Source of the DNA: Candidatus Zixiibacteriota bacterium
Lineage (GTDB): Bacteria > Zixibacteria > MSB-5A5 > GN15 > FEB-12
DNA: 64,000 nucleotides
NCBI GenBank assembly: GCA_040756055.1
Contig: JBFLZR010000006.1
Location: 62,001-126,000 of the forward strand
Direction of reading: 5' to 3'
Each line of letters starts with the position of its first letter. The stretch's first letter is position 1. The position numbers and the translations under genes are program-made. Shown piece by piece: positions 50,301 through 60,384 of the stretch. The notes under the pieces were generated by a model that was not told where the DNA came from, ran no database searches, and saw nothing but the letters and a program-made list of their open reading frames with translations.

Positions 50301-50677
50301 GGTGACCAGCCGGCGACCTCGGCCCGTCGGCCGAAATAGGTCAGACGGGCAGGAAGTCCCCCTGCCAGAGGCATCACGAACACATCATTCACGCCTTCGT
50401 ACCTCCCCGCGAATGCCACCATCCGACCGTCCGGCGATATCGACGGTTGGGTTTCCAGCCCCGGATGCGTGGTCAGGCGCTGTGCCACTCCGCCCTCGGC
50501 ACCGACCTTCCACAGATCGCCTTCGGCCACGAAGACGATAGTCTCGTTGTGAATGGCCGGCTGACGGTAATATCCGACGCGAGTTTGGGCGGCGCTCTCG
50601 AACTCTTTAGCGGACACGGAAACCAGACCGCTAATTAATAGCGCTATTGTGTAACAAACGGCGAACAGTCTTTTCAT
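47399..50677 (-). CDS. Tricorn-type exported protease
   Basis: About 1092 residues started at the ATG with TGAGGAAAATC upstream; a second ATG lies four codons earlier. A signal peptide (about 1-23) is followed by two beta-propellers with many SPDG strands (QPSISPDGRMVAFAG, IVWSPDSRYLAFVKG), a Glu/Asp-rich linker near 555-580, a helical domain, a PDZ domain (VGVSIGDVITKVNGVP) and the C-terminal S41-like catalytic core with the serine in NEWTSSDGELFLEG and GTRTWGGE. Tricorn proteases cut oligopeptides; exported bacterial homologues act in the periplasm. Its promoter is divergent from that of the DUF4412-like gene. Confidence 0.94.
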   Translation of the reverse strand: MKRLFAVCYTIALLISGLVSVSAKEFESAAQTRVGYYRQPAIHNETIVFVAEGDLWKVGAEGGVAQRLTTHPGLETQPSISPDGRMVAFAGRYEGVNDVFVMPLAGGLPARLTYFGRRAEVAGWSPSGKVLCVTLNYSTLPNRQLIEVDIATRQHELIPLSQAAQGCYDDSEQTLYFTRLPFQGSYVKRYKGGTAQNLWKFSADQPEAIALTADYPGTSANPMWYEGRLYFLSDRDGTMNIWSMDSSGGGLKQHTQHVGWDIQSASLSNGRVVYQLGADIHRYTIADGIDRKLDITLASDFDQMRERWIDEPLDYLTAAHLSPDGEHVVMTARGAVFVVPRKAGRLVEATHESSIRYRSARFMPDGKTVVALNDASGELEFWSMAANGLGAPKQITSDGTVFRFDGIPSPDGKLLAFDDKAQKLWIHDIERGATILVDSSITAEYSGIVWSPDSRYLAFVKGAHNFLGQIFVYDIEGKKTIPVTTDRFLDHDPAWSPDGKWLYFLSDRDFNTIVANVWDLNQPFPLIDQMTKIYMLPLTKGLRSPFEADNELTPKQTEPEADKGRSDSAGGVTIDFDGILERVMETPVPAGNYSSLQVNDEQLYWLSWDNTSRGKRRLNTIEMKNDNAEVKTLAEDVGAFELSADGKRMLIRKDKNLYVTSSQGTSNLDLGKSKLDLSDWAFSINPAHEWRQMFTDAWRMERDYFYDPGMHGVDWAKMHDKYLPLVSRITDRWELSDLLGQMVGEISALHTYVWDGDVRTGPDDIAASFLGAVTTRSEAAGGFKVDYIYRSDPQQPEFLSPLAHPNVGVSIGDVITKVNGVPTMSFTCLEEPLRRMAGKQVLLTVVTPQSRQERNVIVEPISVDEARGLRYRDWEYTRRLEVEDMSYNEIGYVHLRETATSDYGQWVRDFYPVFNRKGLIIDMRHNYGGQIDSWIITTLLRKSWAYWQSRIGVPYSNMQLAFNGHIAVLCNEWTSSDGELFLEGIRRFGLGKIIGTRTWGGEIWLSYNNLLVDKGIASAAESGVYGPEGEWLIEGYGVEPDIVVDNLPHATFEGEDAQLKAAIEYLTEQIRLNPVEVPQAPPYPDKSFDAGQ

Positions 50678-50739
50678 GATTTTCCTCATATAGTTGGAGC
50701 CAATGGAGGCATTTGCTTCGGTATCAATTGTCGTATACG

Positions 50740-50768
50740 ATGATACGGCCTTGAAGGTTTACAGTCAA
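50740..50768 (-). promoter_or_regulatory. Promoter of the tricorn-like gene
   Basis: Minus strand TTGACT (50763-50768) and TATCAT (50740-50745), 17 bases apart, about 60 bases before the start codon. Confidence 0.55.
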
Positions 50769-50819
50769 TTCCATTCTTCTCGATATATTTCAAGCAGTTA
50801 GCCGTCCTCAGGCTTTTCG

Positions 50820-50848
50820 TTGACAACTGGACAGACATCAATGATAAT
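50820..50848 (+). promoter_or_regulatory. Promoter of the DUF4412-like gene
   Basis: TTGACA (50820-50825) and GATAAT (50843-50848), 17 bases apart. The spacer begins ACTGGACA, similar to the spacers of the promoters at 51697 and 56645. Confidence 0.6.
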
Positions 50849-50881
50849 TCCAGCAGTTCTAATCACACAAGGAGGAGTGCT

Positions 50882-51667
50882 ATGCTTAGCAGACGGATTC
50901 AATGGCTCGGCACCGTTGTGCTGACAATCGTCGTATTCACTGCAGCTGCGCCGGTTGTGGCTGATCAGTATATCAAACAGGTTACCATCACAGACCCTGT
51001 CTCGATTATGGGGCAGAACCAACCGGGTCGGTCTGACACTACCGTTGTCTGGATCGGTGATACCCGCTCATCCATGCAATCGCCCGGCAAACAGTGGGTC
51101 ATTTATGATGCCACCGATAACATGCTCTACTTTGTAGATCACAACAAAAAGGCCTATTCCGAGATGTCGGCCGATATCGGTAAGGCTATGGAAGAGATGA
51201 TGCCTTCCGAAGAAGGTGAAGGGGCCGACGAAGAGGCCGAAATGATGAAGGGGATGGCTCAAGCGATGATGGCTTCGATGGAAGTTACGGTTACCCCAAC
51301 CGATGAAACAAAGAAAATCAAAGACTGGGATGCGAAGAAGTATGTTGTTGTGATGAAAATGCCTATGGGGACGACCACCACCGACGTTTGGGCCACTGAC
51401 GACATAGACCTGGATTTCGAGATGTTCCAGAACGCAGCCAACGGCGCTATGGCTTTGATGCCGGGGTTCGAAAAAATGCGGCAGGAAATGCTCAAGATTC
51501 ACGGGGTGACCGTGGAGAGCGTGACCGAAGCGAATATGATGGGGGCCGTTATTCGCAGTACGCTGGAAGTCCTTGAGTGGGAGCAGAAAGATGCTCCGGC
51601 GGGGACATATGACATTCCGGCGGACTACGAAAAAGTAGACCCAATGGAAATGCAGCCGGAGATGTAA
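50882..51667 (+). CDS. Exported DUF4412-like protein
   Basis: A 261-residue protein with a signal peptide (about 1-27, ending VVADQ). The mature part has the pattern of DUF4412-type periplasmic or outer-membrane-associated proteins: TVVWIGDTRSSMQS, LYFVDHNKKAYSEM, KYVVVMKMPMGTTTTDVWAT, and a C-terminal LPADY-like DIPADYEKVDP. The centre is rich in Met and Glu (residues about 100-130). Function unknown. AAGGAGGAGTGCT precedes the ATG. It is followed by the promoter and leader of the RiPP-like cassette, so it is probably its own transcript. Confidence 0.82.
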   Translation: MLSRRIQWLGTVVLTIVVFTAAAPVVADQYIKQVTITDPVSIMGQNQPGRSDTTVVWIGDTRSSMQSPGKQWVIYDATDNMLYFVDHNKKAYSEMSADIGKAMEEMMPSEEGEGADEEAEMMKGMAQAMMASMEVTVTPTDETKKIKDWDAKKYVVVMKMPMGTTTTDVWATDDIDLDFEMFQNAANGAMALMPGFEKMRQEMLKIHGVTVESVTEANMMGAVIRSTLEVLEWEQKDAPAGTYDIPADYEKVDPMEMQPEM

Positions 51668-51696
51668 TCCGGCGCGAATGGCGGACATTATTATCC

Positions 51697-51724
51697 TTGA
51701 CAAAAAGGACAAAAAAGTTATCTT
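51697..51724 (+). promoter_or_regulatory. Putative promoter of the RiPP-like cassette
   Basis: TTGACA (51697-51702) and TATCTT (51719-51724), 16 bases apart. Transcription would start near 51731, giving an about 235-base leader that opens with a hairpin. Confidence 0.6.
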
Positions 51725-51732
51725 ATTGTTAA

Positions 51733-51758
51733 GTCCTCCCGGTACCGCCAGGGAGGAC
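51733..51758 (+). promoter_or_regulatory. Hairpin at the start of the cassette transcript
   Basis: Stem GTCCTCCC (51733-51740) / GGGAGGAC (51751-51758), loop of ten bases, with no T-tract after it. Placed almost exactly at the predicted transcript start, it would shield the 5' end of the mRNA; less likely it ends the upstream gene's transcript. Confidence 0.45.
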
Positions 51759-51965
51759 ATTAGCACAAGAGGGAAAAGAACTTAGCCGTTTCTGGCGCCT
51801 CACTTCGCCAGGCTAAGAGCTTGGATGAGCAGCAGATAGTAAGCGTCAAACTAACCCGTATCATCAGAGTACATACCACATAGGTAATGGCTGTTTTTAC
51901 ATATTTTTCTGTTTGTTCGCAGAGAGATGAATGGGAATCCCAAACGATCTTAAGGAGGTGATTTG

Positions 51966-52085
51966 ATGATCTTTTTAATCGACCCGACCATGGTTGGCAA
52001 GAAGTGCCCGAGCTATGAACCGCCGGTTTGCAGCCCGAAATATATTCCGCTCTACGGTATCGATCCGATTCTTCCGCCGGAGTGA
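51966..52085 (+). CDS. Candidate RiPP precursor peptide, 39 residues
   Basis: A short gene with a perfect 11-base Shine-Dalgarno TAAGGAGGTGA (51951-51961) ideally placed before its ATG. The 39-residue product has nine Pro, three Tyr (17, 26, 30) and two Cys (14, 22). The first 13 residues (IFLIDP early, KK at 12-13) may be the leader. The rest has two like units: Cys14 followed by PSYEP (15-19), and Cys22-Ser followed by PKYIP (24-28), then LYGIDPI and a PPE end. Two radical SAM/SPASM enzymes and an exporter follow on the same strand. That this is the substrate is inferred from context; I do not recognise a known precursor family. Confidence 0.8.
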   Translation: MIFLIDPTMVGKKCPSYEPPVCSPKYIPLYGIDPILPPE

Positions 52086-52180
52086 TGATTAAACTACAGG
52101 TAACCTGTCTTGCTTGGTTTTGAAGCGGACGGTTGCCCCGGATAACGATGTCGGATGTCGGCGAATGCCGGCCTCCGTTT

Positions 52181-52212
52181 ATGGGGCGCGCCATACGCGC
52201 CCCATAATTTTC
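52181..52212 (+). terminator. Attenuator-like hairpin between precursor and maturase genes
   Basis: Stem ATGGGGCGCG (52181-52190) / CGCGCCCCAT (52196-52205) with loop CCATA, then AATTTTC. The T-run is short, so it may terminate only part of the transcripts, giving more precursor mRNA than maturase mRNA. It could also stabilise the 3' end of a processed precursor message. Confidence 0.6.
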
Positions 52213-52235
52213 AGCCAAACTAATAGAAACTAAAA

Positions 52236-53579
52236 ATGCCTAAGAAATCCCTTTATAACCACTTTCAGCGATTCAGCGAAGAGTATTACATAGCCTACAA
52301 CGCCCGTTCCGGAGCCGTGGCGCTAATGACCCCCGAAAATTACGAGGTCTACGAAAGCTTGCTCGATAAGTTCGAGAATGGTCTCGAAGACCTCAGTGAT
52401 GAGGAGCGGAAATTACTCAAGCAACTGGAATACGGCAAGTTCGTTTGCCCGGATGATTATGACGAACTGGCCGCGATAAAATTTGAACACAATATAGGTC
52501 GCTACAATATCTCTGAGCTCGGTCTTGTCATAGCCCCCACGATGGCGTGTAACATGGCCTGTGAATATTGCTATGAGCAGAACAAGAGTGGCCGCATGCA
52601 GCCGGAAATAGTGGAAAGCCTGGTGGAGTTTGTTAAGAAACGGGCCAAGGCACTTGGGAGTCTCAGTGTGACCTGGTACGGCGGAGAACCGCTTCTGGCC
52701 ATGGATATCATAGAAGACCTGTCGTCGCGATTTATCGAATTCAGCAAGGAGTACCAGTTCCACTACACTGCCTCAATTGTGACAAACGGTTATCTGTTGA
52801 CCCCGCAGACAGTCGATCGTCTTCGCGAGTTGAAAGTGGTCGGCGGACAGGTAACTCTCGATGGCCCCGCCGAACAACACAACACGAAACGGCCCCTGAA
52901 AAACGGCAAAGACAGTTTTTCCACGATTATCGAAAATTTGAAATACGCCATGACCCGTCTGGGAATTTCTATCCGGGTCAATATTGACAAGAGCTTTTCA
53001 GCTCAAACCATTCAACAGCTCTTGACGGAACTCAAGCAGGCCGGATTACATGAGCGAGTGCCGATCAATTTCGGACACCTGGAAGCGTCAACCGAAGTCT
53101 GCGCCAATATCGCCGAAGCCTGCTACGACAATACGAATTTCTCGGCGGTCGAGACTGATTATTATCGTCTGCTTCTGGCGAATGGCTTTATGATTCAAAA
53201 AATACCGTCGCCCACACCCGTCTGCTGCATGGCCCAAATTGTCAATTCATTTGTCGTTGACCCGCTCGGTGACCTGTACCGCTGCTGGAACTATGTGGGC
53301 AATCGCGAAAGGTGCATGGGGAATATCAAAGACGAAATCGACTTCCAGCACGCGAACTTCAGGAGACTGTTTAAAGTGGATCCTTTCGAAGAAGAAACTT
53401 GCCGCTCGTGCAATCTGCTTCCCATCTGCATGGGAGGATGCCCGAGTCGGAGGGCTGACCGTGGACTTTCAGGTGAACAGGTCTGCGAAAGCTGGAAATA
53501 TAATCTGGAACCTATGTTGGAGATAATAGCGGCCTCGAAACAGCAAGAAATGGCGAGGTCGGCCAAGGAGCAATCATGA
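52236..53579 (+). CDS. Radical SAM/SPASM peptide maturase with N-terminal recognition-like domain
   Basis: A 447-residue radical SAM enzyme. Residues 1 to about 95 resemble the PqqD-like/RRE region of peptide maturases (YIAYNARSGAVALM, a helix, and a FVCPDDYDEL end). The AdoMet cluster motif CNMACEYC has Cys105, 109 and 112, followed by YGGEPLL at 148-154. The SPASM domain cysteines for auxiliary clusters are at 330/331, 350, 360, 389, 392, 398, 402 and 417. Such enzymes install thioether or carbon crosslinks in ribosomal peptides. It overlaps the second maturase gene by 4 bases and follows the 39-residue peptide gene by 150 bases. Confidence 0.92.
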   Translation: MPKKSLYNHFQRFSEEYYIAYNARSGAVALMTPENYEVYESLLDKFENGLEDLSDEERKLLKQLEYGKFVCPDDYDELAAIKFEHNIGRYNISELGLVIAPTMACNMACEYCYEQNKSGRMQPEIVESLVEFVKKRAKALGSLSVTWYGGEPLLAMDIIEDLSSRFIEFSKEYQFHYTASIVTNGYLLTPQTVDRLRELKVVGGQVTLDGPAEQHNTKRPLKNGKDSFSTIIENLKYAMTRLGISIRVNIDKSFSAQTIQQLLTELKQAGLHERVPINFGHLEASTEVCANIAEACYDNTNFSAVETDYYRLLLANGFMIQKIPSPTPVCCMAQIVNSFVVDPLGDLYRCWNYVGNRERCMGNIKDEIDFQHANFRRLFKVDPFEEETCRSCNLLPICMGGCPSRRADRGLSGEQVCESWKYNLEPMLEIIAASKQQEMARSAKEQS

Positions 53580-54655
53580 ACGACTTCAAATTCTACCCCG
53601 CTGCCGTGGTATGGGAAGTAACTTTCGCCTGCAATATGCGCTGCCTTCACTGCGGAACTTCCGCCGGAACCCTGCGCCCCAAAGAGCTCACAACCGATGA
53701 AGCCTTTAAACTCGTCGACGAACTGCACAGCCTCGGATGCGCTTCGATAACGATATCGGGCGGCGAGCCGCTGCTTAGAAAAGACTGGCGCGAACTGGGA
53801 AGATACATAAAATCAAAGGGTATTGACCTGTATCTCATTACCAACGGCTACGCTGTCACTGAAGATATCGTTAAGGACTTCAAGGCGGTCGGTATCAGCA
53901 GTGTTGGCGTCAGTTTCGATGGTACCGAGAAAACGCACAACTATATTCGCCAGAACGACAAGAGCTACGAGCGGGCCTTAAACGCCATGAAACTGATGAC
54001 GGCGGCAAATTTGCCCTGTCAGGCGGTTACGCAAGTTTCCAATTTGAATCTTAAAGAACTCGATGATATTCGCCAAATATTGATAGATGCAGGCTGTAAG
54101 CGCTGGAGAGTGCAAATGACCACCTGCACCGGTCGCATGCAGCGTGACCTCGTTCTCACTCTCGAAAACTACCCGGTGCTGATCGATAAGCTTCTTGAAT
54201 TCTCCAAGGACTCCAGCCAGATCCAGGTCTTTGTCGGTGAAAATATCGGCTACTACGGCTGCAAGGGCGCGCAGTTGTGGGGGAAAGATCCCTACCTCGG
54301 TTGTTATGCGGGTACAAGGATAGCCGGCATCGAGTCCGATGGCAAAGTGAAAGGCTGCCTGTCGATGCCCGAACAGTTCGTCGAAGGTAACATTCGTGAT
54401 TCATCCTTCACGGAAATTTGGAATGACCCGGATAATTTTCTATATAACCGCAAATTCACCCGCGAGACGGCTACCGGCGCGTGCCATGACTGCAGATACC
54501 TTCCGCTGTGCCGCGGTGGCTGTGCCACGACATCAGTATCGGCGACCGGTGAGAGAGCCAATAACCCTTACTGCATGTACCAGATAGAGCAGAAACAGGG
54601 AATTGAGCCGGTGGATGATGAACTCGTTTTGAGGTTGTTGGAAGATTTCCAGTAG
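53576..54655 (+). CDS. Second radical SAM/SPASM peptide maturase
   Basis: A 359-residue radical SAM enzyme without the N-terminal recognition domain. The AdoMet cluster motif CNMRCLHC has Cys19, 23 and 26; SGGEPLLRKD follows at 61-70. SPASM cysteines are at 243, 261, 303, 306, 312, 316 and 333. It most resembles the PqqE/MftC-like class in layout. Translationally coupled to the first maturase by ATGA, it probably acts on the same peptide, perhaps using the recognition domain of its partner. The order and number of reactions cannot be told. Confidence 0.92.
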   Translation: MNDFKFYPAAVVWEVTFACNMRCLHCGTSAGTLRPKELTTDEAFKLVDELHSLGCASITISGGEPLLRKDWRELGRYIKSKGIDLYLITNGYAVTEDIVKDFKAVGISSVGVSFDGTEKTHNYIRQNDKSYERALNAMKLMTAANLPCQAVTQVSNLNLKELDDIRQILIDAGCKRWRVQMTTCTGRMQRDLVLTLENYPVLIDKLLEFSKDSSQIQVFVGENIGYYGCKGAQLWGKDPYLGCYAGTRIAGIESDGKVKGCLSMPEQFVEGNIRDSSFTEIWNDPDNFLYNRKFTRETATGACHDCRYLPLCRGGCATTSVSATGERANNPYCMYQIEQKQGIEPVDDELVLRLLEDFQ

Positions 54656-54721
54656 CGCTGGCGTCAAACGACGGCTATACTATATAGATGATAAGTAACC
54701 TCCCCCGGGCAACAGGGTTCT

Positions 54722-56479
54722 ATGCTTCCAGATAAAGCTGTATTGAAACGTCTGTGGGGCTATCTTCGCCCATACTGGCATCTCCAGGTTATAACCTTCC
54801 TGGTGATGATGGTCTTGGCGGTGCTGGCGCTGGCATTGCCGGCGGCCGTTCAGTACATGATCGATGACCTGATCCCCCATCTGACCGAAACGACTCAAAA
54901 CGGTATCGACTGGACTCCGGCTCTGTGGTTCGGAGTTATTCTGATTGGTATATACTTTCTGCGGGTCGTCTTCTCGGCCATCCAAGATTACCTCGCCACG
55001 AGGATCGGAGCCTCCATAATTAACGACATGCGAACCGAGCTGTTTGCCCATCTCGAAACAGTTTCATTCCGGTTCTACCAGCAATACCAGATGGGGGAAA
55101 TCATTTCGAGAATTCTCTCGGATGTTTCCAGAATCCAGAATCTTCTGGCGGTAACCATCCTCAGGTTTCTCCAGAATGTGCTGCTTCTCTTAGGTATTCT
55201 GGTCTATCTGCTTTTCGTTGACTGGAAACTCACTCTGGTTGCTCTGGCGCCGGTTCCCTTGACGATAGTCTTTTCCAATTACTTTGGAGTTAAGGCTCAC
55301 GGAATTGCCAAACGGTTGCAGGAGACGATAGCATCTTTTCAAGGGCGGATTCAAGAATCGCTTGGCGGCCTCAGAACAGTGCGCGCTTTCGGACAGGAGA
55401 AAGCGGAGACCGGCAAAATGGTTGGCATCCTGGAGCGCCTGTGGGGCCTTTATATCAAAAACGCCGTCGTCAATTCTTTGTCCTACAACTTTGTCTACTT
55501 CCTGAACATGCTCGGCCCCGTGATTGTCCTCGCCTGGGGTACCTACCTGATTGCCGTGGGGAGTATGAAGCTGGGCGCCCTGATGGCGTTTTACATGCTG
55601 TTGGCCTATCTGTATGGTCCGGTCCAGGACCTTGCCGCGATAAATGTCAACGTACAGTCGGCGATGGCTTCGGTCAATCGCGTATTCGAATACCTCGACC
55701 TGCCTTCGGCGGTTACGCAGCCCTCGCAGCCGGTAATCCTCAAAGACGTGCGCGGCGCTATTCGCCTTGACAACGTGAGCTACCGGCACGATGGTTCCGG
55801 GTTCACTATCGAGAATCTCTCGCTCGAGATAGGCTCCGGAGAAACAGTAGCCATTGTCGGACCGTCGGGCGCGGGGAAAACCACGCTGATAAATCTTATA
55901 ATGCGTTTTTTCGACCCGGATAGCGGTATCGTGACGCTCGATGGCGTCGATTTGAAGCAAATCGACCTCAAGGCCCTCCGCGGTTACATGAGCCTGGTCG
56001 ATCAGGATCCGCTGCTGTTTAAGATGTCCATCCGTGATAATATCGCCTACGCTGACCAGAACGCCACAATGGAGATGGTTGAGAAGGCCGCGAGGATAGC
56101 CAATATCCATGATTTTGTCGTCAGTCAGAAGAAAGGCTATGATACGGAAATAGGCGAGAGGGGCGTGACTGTATCAGGCGGCGAAAAACAGCGCCTGTGC
56201 CTCGCCCGTGCTGTCCTGAATGACCCGCCGATTATATTGCTCGATGAGGCTACTTCGTCGCTCGATTCCAAATCCGAAGAGTTGATTCAGCAGGCCCTGA
56301 GCCAGCTTCTTAAGAGGAAAACCGCCGTGATTGTGGCCCATCGTCTGGCCACCGTCCGCCACGCCGACCGCATAGTCGTGATGGACAACGGCCGGATTGT
56401 TGATCAGGGAACGCACGATGGTCTGATGGTTTCCTCGATTTTATACCGCGAACTCGCCAGCAAGCAATTGCTGTTGTAG
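54722..56479 (+). CDS. MsbA-like ABC exporter of the RiPP-like cassette
   Basis: A 585-residue half transporter: a six-helix exporter domain (about 1-320) and an ATPase domain with Walker A GPSGAGKTT, Q-loop SLVDQDPLLF, signature VSGGEKQRLCLARA and Walker B PIILLDEATSSLDS. There is no N-terminal C39 peptidase, so leader removal, if any, needs another protease. The family moves lipids, drugs or peptides. Sixty-six bases after the second maturase on the same strand, it is likely the exporter of the mature peptide. No clear terminator follows. Confidence 0.9.
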   Translation: MLPDKAVLKRLWGYLRPYWHLQVITFLVMMVLAVLALALPAAVQYMIDDLIPHLTETTQNGIDWTPALWFGVILIGIYFLRVVFSAIQDYLATRIGASIINDMRTELFAHLETVSFRFYQQYQMGEIISRILSDVSRIQNLLAVTILRFLQNVLLLLGILVYLLFVDWKLTLVALAPVPLTIVFSNYFGVKAHGIAKRLQETIASFQGRIQESLGGLRTVRAFGQEKAETGKMVGILERLWGLYIKNAVVNSLSYNFVYFLNMLGPVIVLAWGTYLIAVGSMKLGALMAFYMLLAYLYGPVQDLAAINVNVQSAMASVNRVFEYLDLPSAVTQPSQPVILKDVRGAIRLDNVSYRHDGSGFTIENLSLEIGSGETVAIVGPSGAGKTTLINLIMRFFDPDSGIVTLDGVDLKQIDLKALRGYMSLVDQDPLLFKMSIRDNIAYADQNATMEMVEKAARIANIHDFVVSQKKGYDTEIGERGVTVSGGEKQRLCLARAVLNDPPIILLDEATSSLDSKSEELIQQALSQLLKRKTAVIVAHRLATVRHADRIVVMDNGRIVDQGTHDGLMVSSILYRELASKQLLL

Positions 56480-56644
56480 AGCCATTGCCCTCGAATATTT
56501 CTTGGATTTCTCAAATGTCTGCTGACCGACAGACTGACCAGTTCGACTGAGCAGCTATGGCGAGCGATAGTTAAGTGTCGTTATATCAACGCCTTACGGC
56601 ATGCATTCTGGACTATAGCAATCGCTAACAAAATCAAGAAAAAG

Positions 56645-56672
56645 TTGACAACAGGACAAAATTTGTTATTTT
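56645..56672 (+). promoter_or_regulatory. Promoter of the multihaem cytochrome operon
   Basis: TTGACA (56645-56650) and TATTTT (56667-56672), 16 bases apart, about 45 bases before the first gene. The spacer contains GGACAAAA, like the cassette promoter at 51697. Confidence 0.6.
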
Positions 56673-56718
56673 ATTCACAAGGACGAATCAAATAAAACAA
56701 GGAAGACCTAAACACACC

Positions 56719-57177
56719 ATGAATAACCGCCCGTCTTCGTCAATTCTTGCCCTCATCCTGATTCTTACTCTGACCTCTCAAGTTTGGCCCCAACAGGCCG
56801 ATTCCACCGATGTAAGCGAGCAGCAAGAATATTTCATAATCGAATCCCGCCACCGACTTTATCCCGATTTTGTGCAAATCGATACTGTCGGAATGGACCA
56901 ACCGTTTTATATTGGGGAAGATGAGTGGAAGGCCGCTGTAGTTGGCTTCAATCCGCATCTGGGCATAACCCAGAAAGGTGAGGCCCTGCAAATGTCCGAC
57001 ACTCTGTACAATCCCGCAGTGAGAGTCCGGGTTTCGGTTGATGATGAGATAAAGCAGGAAAGCTGGGGGTTCTATGTGCTGTCGTCACCGCATTTCAAAC
57101 GTGACGATCTTCTGGCTTTCAAGCTTGTGGACTTCAAAGTAAGTGATAAATACGTCGAGGCGCCAGCCAGAAAGTGA
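56719..57177 (+). CDS. Small exported protein leading the cytochrome operon
   Basis: A 152-residue protein with a signal peptide (about 1-25, ending WPQQ). The mature part is beta-rich and acidic (VQIDTVGMDQPFYIGEDEWKAAVVGFNPHLGI, then VRVRVSVDDE). There is no haem motif and no family that I recognise. It begins the cytochrome operon, 9 bases before the 42-haem gene, and may help assemble or anchor it. The ribosome-binding site is weak (AAGGA about 15 bases upstream). Confidence 0.78.
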   Translation: MNNRPSSSILALILILTLTSQVWPQQADSTDVSEQQEYFIIESRHRLYPDFVQIDTVGMDQPFYIGEDEWKAAVVGFNPHLGITQKGEALQMSDTLYNPAVRVRVSVDDEIKQESWGFYVLSSPHFKRDDLLAFKLVDFKVSDKYVEAPARK

Positions 57178-57186
57178 GAGGTAGTT

Positions 57187-60100
57187 GTGCGGCGAACACT
57201 TGTCACATACAGCATAGCGATCAGCTTTACATTAATAACCATAGCGGCCTTCGCACCATCGGCCTTCGCAGCGAAAACCTGCTACGACTGCCACACCAAG
57301 GAGAAAGAAATTTACTCCAAGGTCAAGTTTGCGCACCAGCCGGTCAAAGACGAAAACTGCGAAAGCTGCCACAAACGTCACGGTTTCGCGCAGAAGCTGA
57401 TTCTTCAGGATGCCACCTCCGAACTGTGCTACAAGTGTCACGCCGATTTGAAAGAAAAATACAGCCAGGGAAGTGTCCACTTCCCGGTAGCCTCGGGCAA
57501 ATGCTGGGATTGTCATGACCCGCACGGTTCCAATGAAGCCGCCATGCTGTGGGAACCATCGCCGGACACGCCGGTGGAGCACTTCTGCCTGATGTGTCAT
57601 CAGGACAACATGGACGCCGCCCGCCAGAAGGAATTCATCCACGCTCCATACGATGGACTGGAGTGCCTGACCTGCCACGCCGCTCACAACAGTTCTAATC
57701 CGGGTCTTCTTGTCGCCGATATATTTGCCGTATGCGGGTCGTGTCATGACCAGTCCGATGAGACCTGGGCCGCGGTGCATAAAGAGCGCAACGCCGGGGG
57801 GCTGCCGTGCAGCGACTGTCACGACGCTCACGCTTCGAACGGCGAAGGGTTGCTTAACGATGACGCCCATGCCCCGTTTGCCGGCGGGGATTGCGAAATT
57901 TGCCACAGTTTACCGGATGCCAACGGAAAAGTGGCTTTTGAAGAAGGTGCTTCTCCCGGTGGATTGTGCGCCGCGTGTCATGACGATATCATCGAAAACC
58001 TTTCCAAATCTCATCCGCATCCTGCTGTGGAGGCGGACAACTGCGATAATTGCCACAGTCCTCACTCATCACGTTTTGGCAGTCTTCTGAGGGACAGCCA
58101 GGGAGCTATTTGCGGCGAGTGCCACGATGGTGTGCTGACCGGCGAAGGCCAAAAGCCGCACATGCCGGTGGTGACGGGAGATTGCAGCGGCTGTCATGAA
58201 GTGCACGGTTCAGACAACGCTGCTCTTGTGAAGGCGGATGATGCCACTCTGTGTCTTGGCTGTCATAAGGATTTTGCGCAGTCGCGCGATGCCGCCGCCA
58301 ACGTTCACGCGGCTCTGGATGACTGTCTGGGTTGTCACAAACCGCACGAGGGTATTGCTGAGAAGCTCCTCAGGGCTCCCGTCGTGGAATTGTGCGCCGG
58401 GTGCCACGAACCCGACCGCGAGGCCCTCAATGCGGCATCGGGGCACCAGCCTTACATGACCGGCGAGTGTTCCGATTGCCACCTACCGCACTTCAGCGAT
58501 ACGCCTCATCTGGTTCGCGGTGAAGGCGCCGCCCCGTGTCTGGTCTGCCACGTCGATATCGAAAAGCGGCTCAGTATGGATGTCCCGCACGCTCCGGCGG
58601 TTGATGAGTGCCAGGGTTGCCATGTGCCTCATTACAGCAAGGATAATCTGCATCTGCTGTCAGCGAGACCCAATGAACTCTGCTCATCCTGTCACGATTA
58701 TGAAAGCCTCGATCTCCAGAAAGAATTTGTACACACTCCAGCCGCGCAGGGAGATTGCGCTGGATGTCATAACCCGCACGGCGGCAACCAGCCAAAGCTC
58801 GTCACGGGTAGAATGACGAAAGTCGACGTTGGCGGTCTGATGGTCGGGCAACTTCCTAAACTCAGCGGCATTTCCGCCGACCTGTGCTACACCTGTCACG
58901 ATGATCTGAAGGAAGAGTTTCGCAGACAGAACGCTCACGCTCCAGTAGCGCAGGGTGAGTGTGATGCCTGCCACGCCGCTCACGGGTCGGATAACGTCGG
59001 CTTCGTAGTCGCGGCCGCGCCGGATCTTTGTGTCACCTGTCACGATGTCGATGATGCCCTGACGACAGCGCACGATGGATACGATATCACCACTGCCGAT
59101 TGTCTGGAATGCCACAATCCGCACATCAGCGATCAGCCCAAGCTGGTCCGCAATACGCTTCATCCGCCGTTCGCCGACAATGACTGTGGCAGTTGCCATG
59201 AGATTGGTCCCGATGGCAAGGCGGTTCTGATTGCTTCGGCCATAGAGCTGTGCAGCGCCTGCCATGAGACAGTGACGGAATCCGCTGAACTTGAGCATCA
59301 ACACGCTCCTTTTGCGGGTGAAGAGTGCGGCGCCTGTCATAGTCTGCACGCCGCCGATTACGCCGGTCTGCTCAGGTTTGAAGGAAGCAGTCTCTGTATG
59401 ACCTGTCACGAAAATATTAAAGACCAGCAACAACTGTCGGTCAGCCACCGTCCTTTTGAAGAAGGTCAGTGTCTGGAATGTCACCGTCCGCACGCATCGG
59501 CTTATCCGGGCCTGACAACCAAGCCGGCGGAAAGTTTCTGCGTCTCGTGTCACGAGGACATCAATCGTCAGATTACCGAAGGCGCCCCGCACGCGCCGGT
59601 TGCCGATGGCGACTGCGGTGCCTGCCATGTGCCTCACGCCGGCAATCAGTCCGCGCTGCTGACAACATCGAAGGTAGAACTGTGCGGGCAATGTCACGAT
59701 CTTACGGACCGCGATTTGCGCACGGCTCACAAGGGATTCAGCCTTGAGGGTGTCGATTGTCAAAACTGTCACGCCGCCCACGCCGGACCGGCCGGTTCTA
59801 AAGGACTGTTGCTGCCGGATGTGCACGTTCCGTTCGCCGATGGCGACTGTACTTCATGTCACGATGGTATGAAGGCGCATCAGTTGATCGCGCCGGTCAA
59901 TCGAGTTTGTTTTGCCTGTCACGAGGACTTCCTGGAGAGCACGGCTAATGCGGTCGTTCACGCTCCTTTGCAAAGGGAAGATGGCTGCGTTGAGTGTCAC
60001 GGGCCGCACGTTGGATATGGCTCGAAGCTTCTGTTAAAAGAGGGTATTTCGCTGTGCTTATCGTGTCACGACGATAACGAATTCAAGGGCAAGAATAAAC

Positions 60101-60384
60101 ACGCCGTAGCTTTTGAGGATTGCGGCAACTGCCATCAGCCCCACACCAGCGCCAATTCCGGTTTACTGGCCACAGCCGACATCATGGAGCTGTGCCTGAC
60201 CTGCCACGAAGGCGCTGTGGAGACGCATTATCACCCGATGGGTGTCGGCGTAACGGATCCGAGAACAAAGGAACCACTGAATTGTGTCGGCTGCCATTCG
60301 CCGCATTCGTCCGATTACACGGCGATACTGGTGGCCGAAAAAGATAGAAAGCTGTGTATCATTTGTCACACGGTGTCTCGATAA
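57187..60384 (+). CDS. 42-haem c-type cytochrome
   Basis: A 1065-residue exported cytochrome. A signal peptide (about 1-28, ending SAFAA) is followed by 42 CxxCH motifs by my count, one about every 25 residues, arranged mostly as doubled-CxxCH units such as CxxCHxPH...LCxxCHxD. Many units share HAPVA-GDC and NPHG-like spacers, so the protein is built by repeated duplication. The start is a GTG with GAGAGG 7 bases upstream. The role is long-range electron transfer in the periplasm, through the outer membrane or outside the cell; the direction is unknown. The next gene starts within its 3' end. Confidence 0.95.
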   Translation: MRRTLVTYSIAISFTLITIAAFAPSAFAAKTCYDCHTKEKEIYSKVKFAHQPVKDENCESCHKRHGFAQKLILQDATSELCYKCHADLKEKYSQGSVHFPVASGKCWDCHDPHGSNEAAMLWEPSPDTPVEHFCLMCHQDNMDAARQKEFIHAPYDGLECLTCHAAHNSSNPGLLVADIFAVCGSCHDQSDETWAAVHKERNAGGLPCSDCHDAHASNGEGLLNDDAHAPFAGGDCEICHSLPDANGKVAFEEGASPGGLCAACHDDIIENLSKSHPHPAVEADNCDNCHSPHSSRFGSLLRDSQGAICGECHDGVLTGEGQKPHMPVVTGDCSGCHEVHGSDNAALVKADDATLCLGCHKDFAQSRDAAANVHAALDDCLGCHKPHEGIAEKLLRAPVVELCAGCHEPDREALNAASGHQPYMTGECSDCHLPHFSDTPHLVRGEGAAPCLVCHVDIEKRLSMDVPHAPAVDECQGCHVPHYSKDNLHLLSARPNELCSSCHDYESLDLQKEFVHTPAAQGDCAGCHNPHGGNQPKLVTGRMTKVDVGGLMVGQLPKLSGISADLCYTCHDDLKEEFRRQNAHAPVAQGECDACHAAHGSDNVGFVVAAAPDLCVTCHDVDDALTTAHDGYDITTADCLECHNPHISDQPKLVRNTLHPPFADNDCGSCHEIGPDGKAVLIASAIELCSACHETVTESAELEHQHAPFAGEECGACHSLHAADYAGLLRFEGSSLCMTCHENIKDQQQLSVSHRPFEEGQCLECHRPHASAYPGLTTKPAESFCVSCHEDINRQITEGAPHAPVADGDCGACHVPHAGNQSALLTTSKVELCGQCHDLTDRDLRTAHKGFSLEGVDCQNCHAAHAGPAGSKGLLLPDVHVPFADGDCTSCHDGMKAHQLIAPVNRVCFACHEDFLESTANAVVHAPLQREDGCVECHGPHVGYGSKLLLKEGISLCLSCHDDNEFKGKNKHAVAFEDCGNCHQPHTSANSGLLATADIMELCLTCHEGAVETHYHPMGVGVTDPRTKEPLNCVGCHSPHSSDYTAILVAEKDRKLCIICHTVSR

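Follow-up and report, generated by a model that had tools for sequence, protein, structure and literature searches.

Which residues of a very small peptide are read by the enzymes encoded beside it, and which are remodelled? This question is raised by a Zixibacteria locus in the 64-kb stretch of DNA analysed here (64,000 nucleotides, referred to as the window), in which a 39-residue open reading frame, two radical SAM/SPASM genes and an ABC exporter gene follow each other in this order on one strand. From the sequences, the peptide is probably remodelled by the two adjacent radical enzymes. The features of the locus are:

51952-51961, forward strand: ribosome-binding site AAGGAGGTGA of the precursor gene, read directly
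51966-52085, forward strand: RiPP precursor gene, called type A, 39 amino acids plus stop (translation, relatives, pS/pN)
51966-51986, forward strand: heptad MIFLIDP, the putative leader; the family consensus is M-h-[YF]-L-[IV]-[DE]-P (alignment, profile)
52005-52031, forward strand: Cys segment bounded by Cys14 and Cys22, where other family members have a Cys-x3-Cys ladder; the mid-position is Glu18 here
52047-52061, forward strand: conserved tail PLYGI, P28 to I32, including Tyr30 (family alignment)
52179-52207, forward strand: RNA hairpin with a 12-bp stem (folding, recurrence across loci)
52236-53579, forward strand: maturase 1, radical SAM/SPASM, Clo7bot-like; about residues 1-92 are predicted to form a recognition domain
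53576-54655, forward strand: maturase 2, radical SAM/SPASM without N-terminal extension (family models, structure model)
54722-56479, forward strand: ABC exporter, MsbA-like, with membrane and ATPase domains (Pfam)

The open reading frame at 51966-52085 is a real gene and encodes a RiPP precursor. It translates into MIFLIDPTMVGKKCPSYEPPVCSPKYIPLYGIDPILPPE, and the ribosome-binding site AAGGAGGTGA 5' of its ATG is strong. Among close precursor pairs from relatives, pooled pS is 0.61 versus a pooled pN of 0.11, values that are descriptive, the pairs overlapping and not being independent of each other; purifying selection acts on the gene in these relatives. NCBIfam and Pfam searches with the precursors gave nothing credible, an Rfam search of positions 50500-57500 gave no match up to E = 1, and the literature listings and abstracts on Zixibacteria and RiPPs contain none on this precursor family.

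Matches to maturase 1 are present in 24 of 61 near genomes (at 1e-40) and in 39 of 132 genomes of the phylum, and the small open reading frames adjoining these maturase genes have one common plan. A profile built from 40 of them has the consensus MIYLIDPx7CxxxCxxxCx5PLYGIPP and finds the precursor family in 37 of the 132 phylum genomes; among 386 genomes of wider relatives, the family is found in the identical 37. Maturase 1 is matched in 36 of these 37 genomes as well; in the remaining one, G058, the precursor lies at a contig end. Three of the 39 maturase genomes are without a precursor match: in G073 the gene is cut by the contig start, G096 has paralogue-grade matches only, and G106 is divergent. 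We also observed four type-A precursors (L085, L086, L088, L089) with no radical SAM gene in the stretch fetched, which makes them candidates for modification in trans.

Three elements recur in an alignment of 45 precursors: (i) an N-terminal heptad (M1 and Tyr/Phe3 in 45/45, Leu4 in 44/45, Pro7 in 45/45), the conservation of which is partly built in because the rows were collected by a pattern requiring the N-terminal residue classes, (ii) Cys columns (first Cys 44/45, last core Cys 41/45), and (iii) a C-terminal tail, P-[LMC]-Y-G-[IV] (Pro and Tyr each 44/45, Gly 42/45). In a set of 73 unique precursors, for which the heptad class and the tail were both required (75 collected minus two without tail), the first Cys lies near residue 15 (positions 14-16 in 65 of 73), there are one to six Cys per precursor, and 98 of 137 Cys-Cys steps are steps of four. 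The L011 precursor is without the P-x-Y-G tail and that of L017 has a single Cys. On the window peptide, a step-4 ladder would occupy positions 14, 18 and 22, the middle one of which is Glu, and Tyr30 is the only Tyr that is conserved. As judged from the alignment, Cys14, Cys22 and Tyr30 are family residues and Tyr17 and Tyr26 are local.

To look at the leader without presupposing the heptad, we used 21 paralogous maturase-1 loci of the phylum. Of the small Cys-containing open reading frames with a ribosome-binding site at these loci, 24 of 51 show M-x-[FYWLIMV]-[ILV]-x-x-P at their start, in three cases preceded by one or two additional residues, and their cores differ from that of the window, as in MKFIEKP...KPCPCY..LFLILPPW. 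This pattern is absent from 284 long-ORF starts and from 31 small open reading frames elsewhere in the window, and likewise from 34 small open reading frames on the other strand of the paralogue loci. Precursors of the MKFIEKP...KPCPCY..LFLILPPW type, 28-31 residues long, were noted beside paralogous radical SAM pairs in other Zixibacteria (L091, L099, L101, L102, L103). The genome of the window itself has a second, paralogous cluster on contig C9 (L005, 3968-7003) with rSAM1b, rSAM2b and two precursors (MLFIIEP..., MIFIIGP... with a Cys ladder); it adjoins open reading frames that by eye resemble MnmA and cysteine desulfurase.

Similar starts occur outside the phylum. In the Clo7bot cluster of Paraclostridium, seven annotated Clo7bot peptides begin with MKFI[KR][KQ]P, and a Cys-rich open reading frame that is not annotated begins with MKYIVKP; a ninth small gene has neither Cys nor heptad. 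In Methylomagnum, the CefA substrate begins with MQYLVQP. Among 21 out-of-phylum loci scanned, plausible heptad precursors were found at L111, L142 and L122 and an implausible one at L114; the other 17 have no heptad open reading frame, except that at L112 it occurs in a long annotated substrate. L142 (5161; MT836101) is a phage-labelled contig from human faeces in which a plausible precursor, MNILIPP..., lies downstream of a Clo7bot-like radical SAM gene. Near most relatives from outside the phylum no heptad was found, which counts against the cassette model given below; most of the heptad-negative loci encode proteins less than 33% identical to maturase 1.

The maturase 2 gene overlaps that of maturase 1 by four bases, on the strand of the precursor. 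SPASM radical SAM enzymes carry a CxxxCxxC motif plus a seven-Cys SPASM motif. Both are found in maturase 1 (C105/109/112; C331, C350, C389, C392, C398, C402, C417) and in maturase 2 (C19/23/26; C243, C261, C303, C306, C312, C316, C333). An AF2 model of maturase 1 from 29 sequences (mean pLDDT 88.8) places strands at residues 8-12, 18-22 and 27-31 and helices at 33-48, 55-66 and 77-90 before the radical SAM core, with extra short strands at 2-4 and 70-72. RiPP recognition elements are defined by strand/helix order, as stated in an excerpt of PMC12710340, and the predicted N-terminal region of maturase 1, with which the first-pass annotation had proposed to model the peptide, matches this order and may bind the leader.

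The fold matches of maturase 1 include CteB (5wgg/5why; Z 26.8-27.7 over 396-403 residues, rmsd about 5), aligned to residues 5-435, and TigE (8vpo; Z 24.2 over 396 residues, rmsd 4.0), aligned from residue 1; anSMEcpe is the top match but covers residues 93-439 only. The model of maturase 2 (pLDDT 91.0) has a fold list led by SuiB, SkfB, CteB, anSMEcpe and PqqE. In a maturase-1 tree of 52 rows, the 25 window-type rows fall to the same side of a branch supported at 100/99; the rows from Paraclostridium, Methylomagnum, Sarcina, Methylovirgula and phage are long and of unsure placement. Literature listings and abstracts name no characterised close relative of maturase 1. We also observed a C-x6-C pair in maturase 1, Cys289/Cys296, between core and SPASM. 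It is invariant in 29/29 rows, is present in Clo7bot, TIGR04463-type and Sarcina relatives and absent from Methylovirgula, and lies in or next to a low-confidence stretch of the model (285-292).

The closest parallel is Clo7bot (TIGR04333/TIGR04334) on a Paraclostridium bifermentans plasmid, the maturase of which is 37% identical to maturase 1 over 95% and shares the extra C-x6-C. Its precursors (MKFIKKP-x8-C with Cys steps of four) have, like the window family, a leader M-x-[FY]-[IL]-x-x-P followed by Cys at steps of four, a pattern derived here from eight precursors and not from a published definition; the window family fits it. Several precursors lie upstream of one maturase in the Clo7bot cluster, and ABC genes lie downstream. 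The two systems differ in that the Paraclostridium maturase scores 731.6 bits against TIGR04334 (cut-off 600), whereas maturase 1, for which this is the best model, reaches 372.9. None of 40 aligned precursors matches TIGR04333 in NCBIfam, and a TIGR04333 search of the window's own genome was silent, as were the controls of the same search. Of the two systems, only the window type has a second radical SAM enzyme and a P-x-Y-G tail; the Clo7bot stretch has heptad and ladder with neither an annotated second radical SAM gene nor PLYG, which associates heptad and ladder with maturase 1, and maturase 2 with the tail. Literature searches for Clo7bot and for radical SAM with geopeptide each found no paper.

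Other known systems are more distant. The CefA/TIGR04463-type maturase of Methylomagnum ishizawai is about 35% identical to maturase 1, and its annotated substrate has a similar start; this substrate is, however, long (its gene has 2040 bases), the 160 residues printed contain no Cys ladder, and the partner enzyme is annotated as a C-methyltransferase-type radical SAM enzyme. PapB (NF047865) and CteB are SPASM radical SAM peptide maturases like maturase 1, but maturase 1 scores under their family cut-offs and the precursors differ. Maturase 2 has its best sequence matches in the GDL-motif enzymes (TIGR03913, the best model, 236 bits against a cut-off of 592), NirJ, AhbD, MftC (mycofactocin) and SkfB, far below the curated cut-offs of each. 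By its sequences, the window system appears to be a variant in which a Clo7bot-like heptad, ladder and maturase are combined with a second radical SAM enzyme and a tail.

The 150-nt gap between precursor and maturase 1 folds with z = -4.9. The 64-kb window contains 30 hairpins of similar score, many of them inside genes, so that the one hairpin of this locus is weak evidence by itself; what counts is that it recurs at the same place in other loci. Of 34 type-A loci, 22 have a hairpin scoring at least 12 at 19-45 nt 5' of maturase 1 and 12 have none or a weak one there, several other type-A loci having it further upstream, closer to the precursor. It scores above every one of 100 shuffles at 19 of the 34 type-A loci and at 0 of 23 paralogue loci. 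Equivalents were seen in L006-L040, where the maturase ribosome-binding sites are weak. A REP-type repeat was ruled out, the hairpin core occurring once in the genome. An intrinsic-terminator scan was not above shuffles, and a plain terminator was not adopted because the hairpin is without a clear U-tract in most loci. The hairpin may instead process or stabilise the precursor transcript.

Pfam matches of the ABC exporter include no peptidase domain. Among 24 type-A loci examined, 10 have a homologue of it after maturase 2 (L006, L007, L035, L037, L039, L040, L071, L078, L081, L082; L006 and L035 belong to one genome). Most negative loci are uninformative only where the contig stretch is short, as many are; L075, L079 and L080 extend more than 1.3 kb further and have no ABC homologue. 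Downstream of the cassette, at 57187-60384, lies a 1065-residue open reading frame full of CxxCH (by eye), likely a multihaem cytochrome.

Combining these data, we suggest with moderate confidence that the locus is a Zixibacteria RiPP cassette in which the heptad serves as leader for maturase 1, the Cys ladder is the substrate of this enzyme, and the P-x-Y-G tail is for maturase 2. In this model, MIFLIDP would be a minimal leader gripped by the recognition domain at the N-terminus of maturase 1; it would probably add a beta-strand to this domain, anchored by Leu4 and Pro7. Both Y-x-x-P and L-x-x-P are among the recognition sequences published (excerpt of PMC12710340), and Leu4-x-x-Pro7 is of this type, at the extreme start of the precursor; the L-x-x-P of the heptad would be a version of the known Y/W/L-x-x-P sequence. 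Maturase 1 would then modify the Cys ladder that begins near residue 15 (here Cys14 and Cys22), thioether cross-links from the Cys sulfur being, judged by kinship, its most likely chemistry. Maturase 2, which is without a recognition domain of its own, would act on the P-L-Y-G-I tail around Tyr30, an assignment to which co-occurrence points and against which it counts that paralogue clusters with their own second radical SAM enzyme carry other tails. The ABC protein would export the product, and the mRNA hairpin together with strong versus weak ribosome-binding sites would yield many peptides per enzyme. More tentatively, and with less than even confidence, M-x-[FYL]-[ILV]-x-x-P may be a portable leader of a Clo7bot-like maturase superfamily that spans Zixibacteria, Bacillota, Pseudomonadota and phage-labelled contigs and is joined to unrelated cores; in the window type it would drive a line of two enzymes, the second of which places a novel modification on the conserved Tyr of P-x-Y-G.

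Alternatively, the peptide could be a PapB-type ranthipeptide in which Cys14 is thioether-linked to Glu18. PapB joins Cys-X3-Asp/Glu (excerpt of PMC9413430), the window peptide has one such motif (CPSYE) with Glu18 at the step-4 position of the middle ladder Cys, and the PapB model matches maturase 1 with 146.1 bits. This score is far under the cut-off of 340, there is no acidic residue at +4 from Cys22, and across the family position +4 holds Cys in 98 of 210 cases, Asp/Glu being outside the seven commonest residues, so that Cys-X3-Asp/Glu is not the family rule; we regard this link as unlikely. More doubtful still is that the ladder is an uncrosslinked array of metal ligands in a secreted metal-binding peptide, with the radical enzymes acting elsewhere, on the tail: the regular step of four and the exporter would suit such a peptide, but the ladder goes with the Clo7bot maturase where no second radical SAM enzyme is annotated, and the window peptide has two Cys only and that of L017 one.

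Least probable is the model of the first-pass annotation, two units in each of which a Cys is linked to a Tyr three to four residues on in a Pro-framed turn: Cys14-PSYEP, Cys22-S-PKYIP and LYGIDPI are all present, shuffled versions of residues 8-39 contain a pair of C..P-x-Y-x-P units in 0.12% of cases, making the repeat unlikely as a random string, and C-x-x-Y occurs in 25 of 73 unique precursors, but both units occur in 1 of 73 and at least one in 5 of 73, the residue at +3 from a Cys is Tyr 23 times out of 210 and Lys 70 times, and both units are missing from the same-genus kin L006 and L007. Homologues of this kind are what that annotation had named as its refutation; on the sequences, the two-unit reading is already refuted as a family feature, and the repeat is a local accident. 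The annotation had expected Cys, Pro and Tyr to be invariant and the start to vary. The Cys do lie in conserved columns and the start is the most conserved part. Its wider claims, that the peptide is a precursor destined for modification and that its leader is very short, are supported.

With the cassette reading, a rule that can be tested takes the place of a local repeat: seven N-terminal residues would direct one maturase, and a C-terminal tag would direct a second enzyme. If true, the leader would be very short and would help to find precursors of about 27-48 codons missed by annotation, and cores could be grafted onto a minimal tag. An uncultured phylum is shown to have a RiPP repertoire with up to several precursors per maturase.
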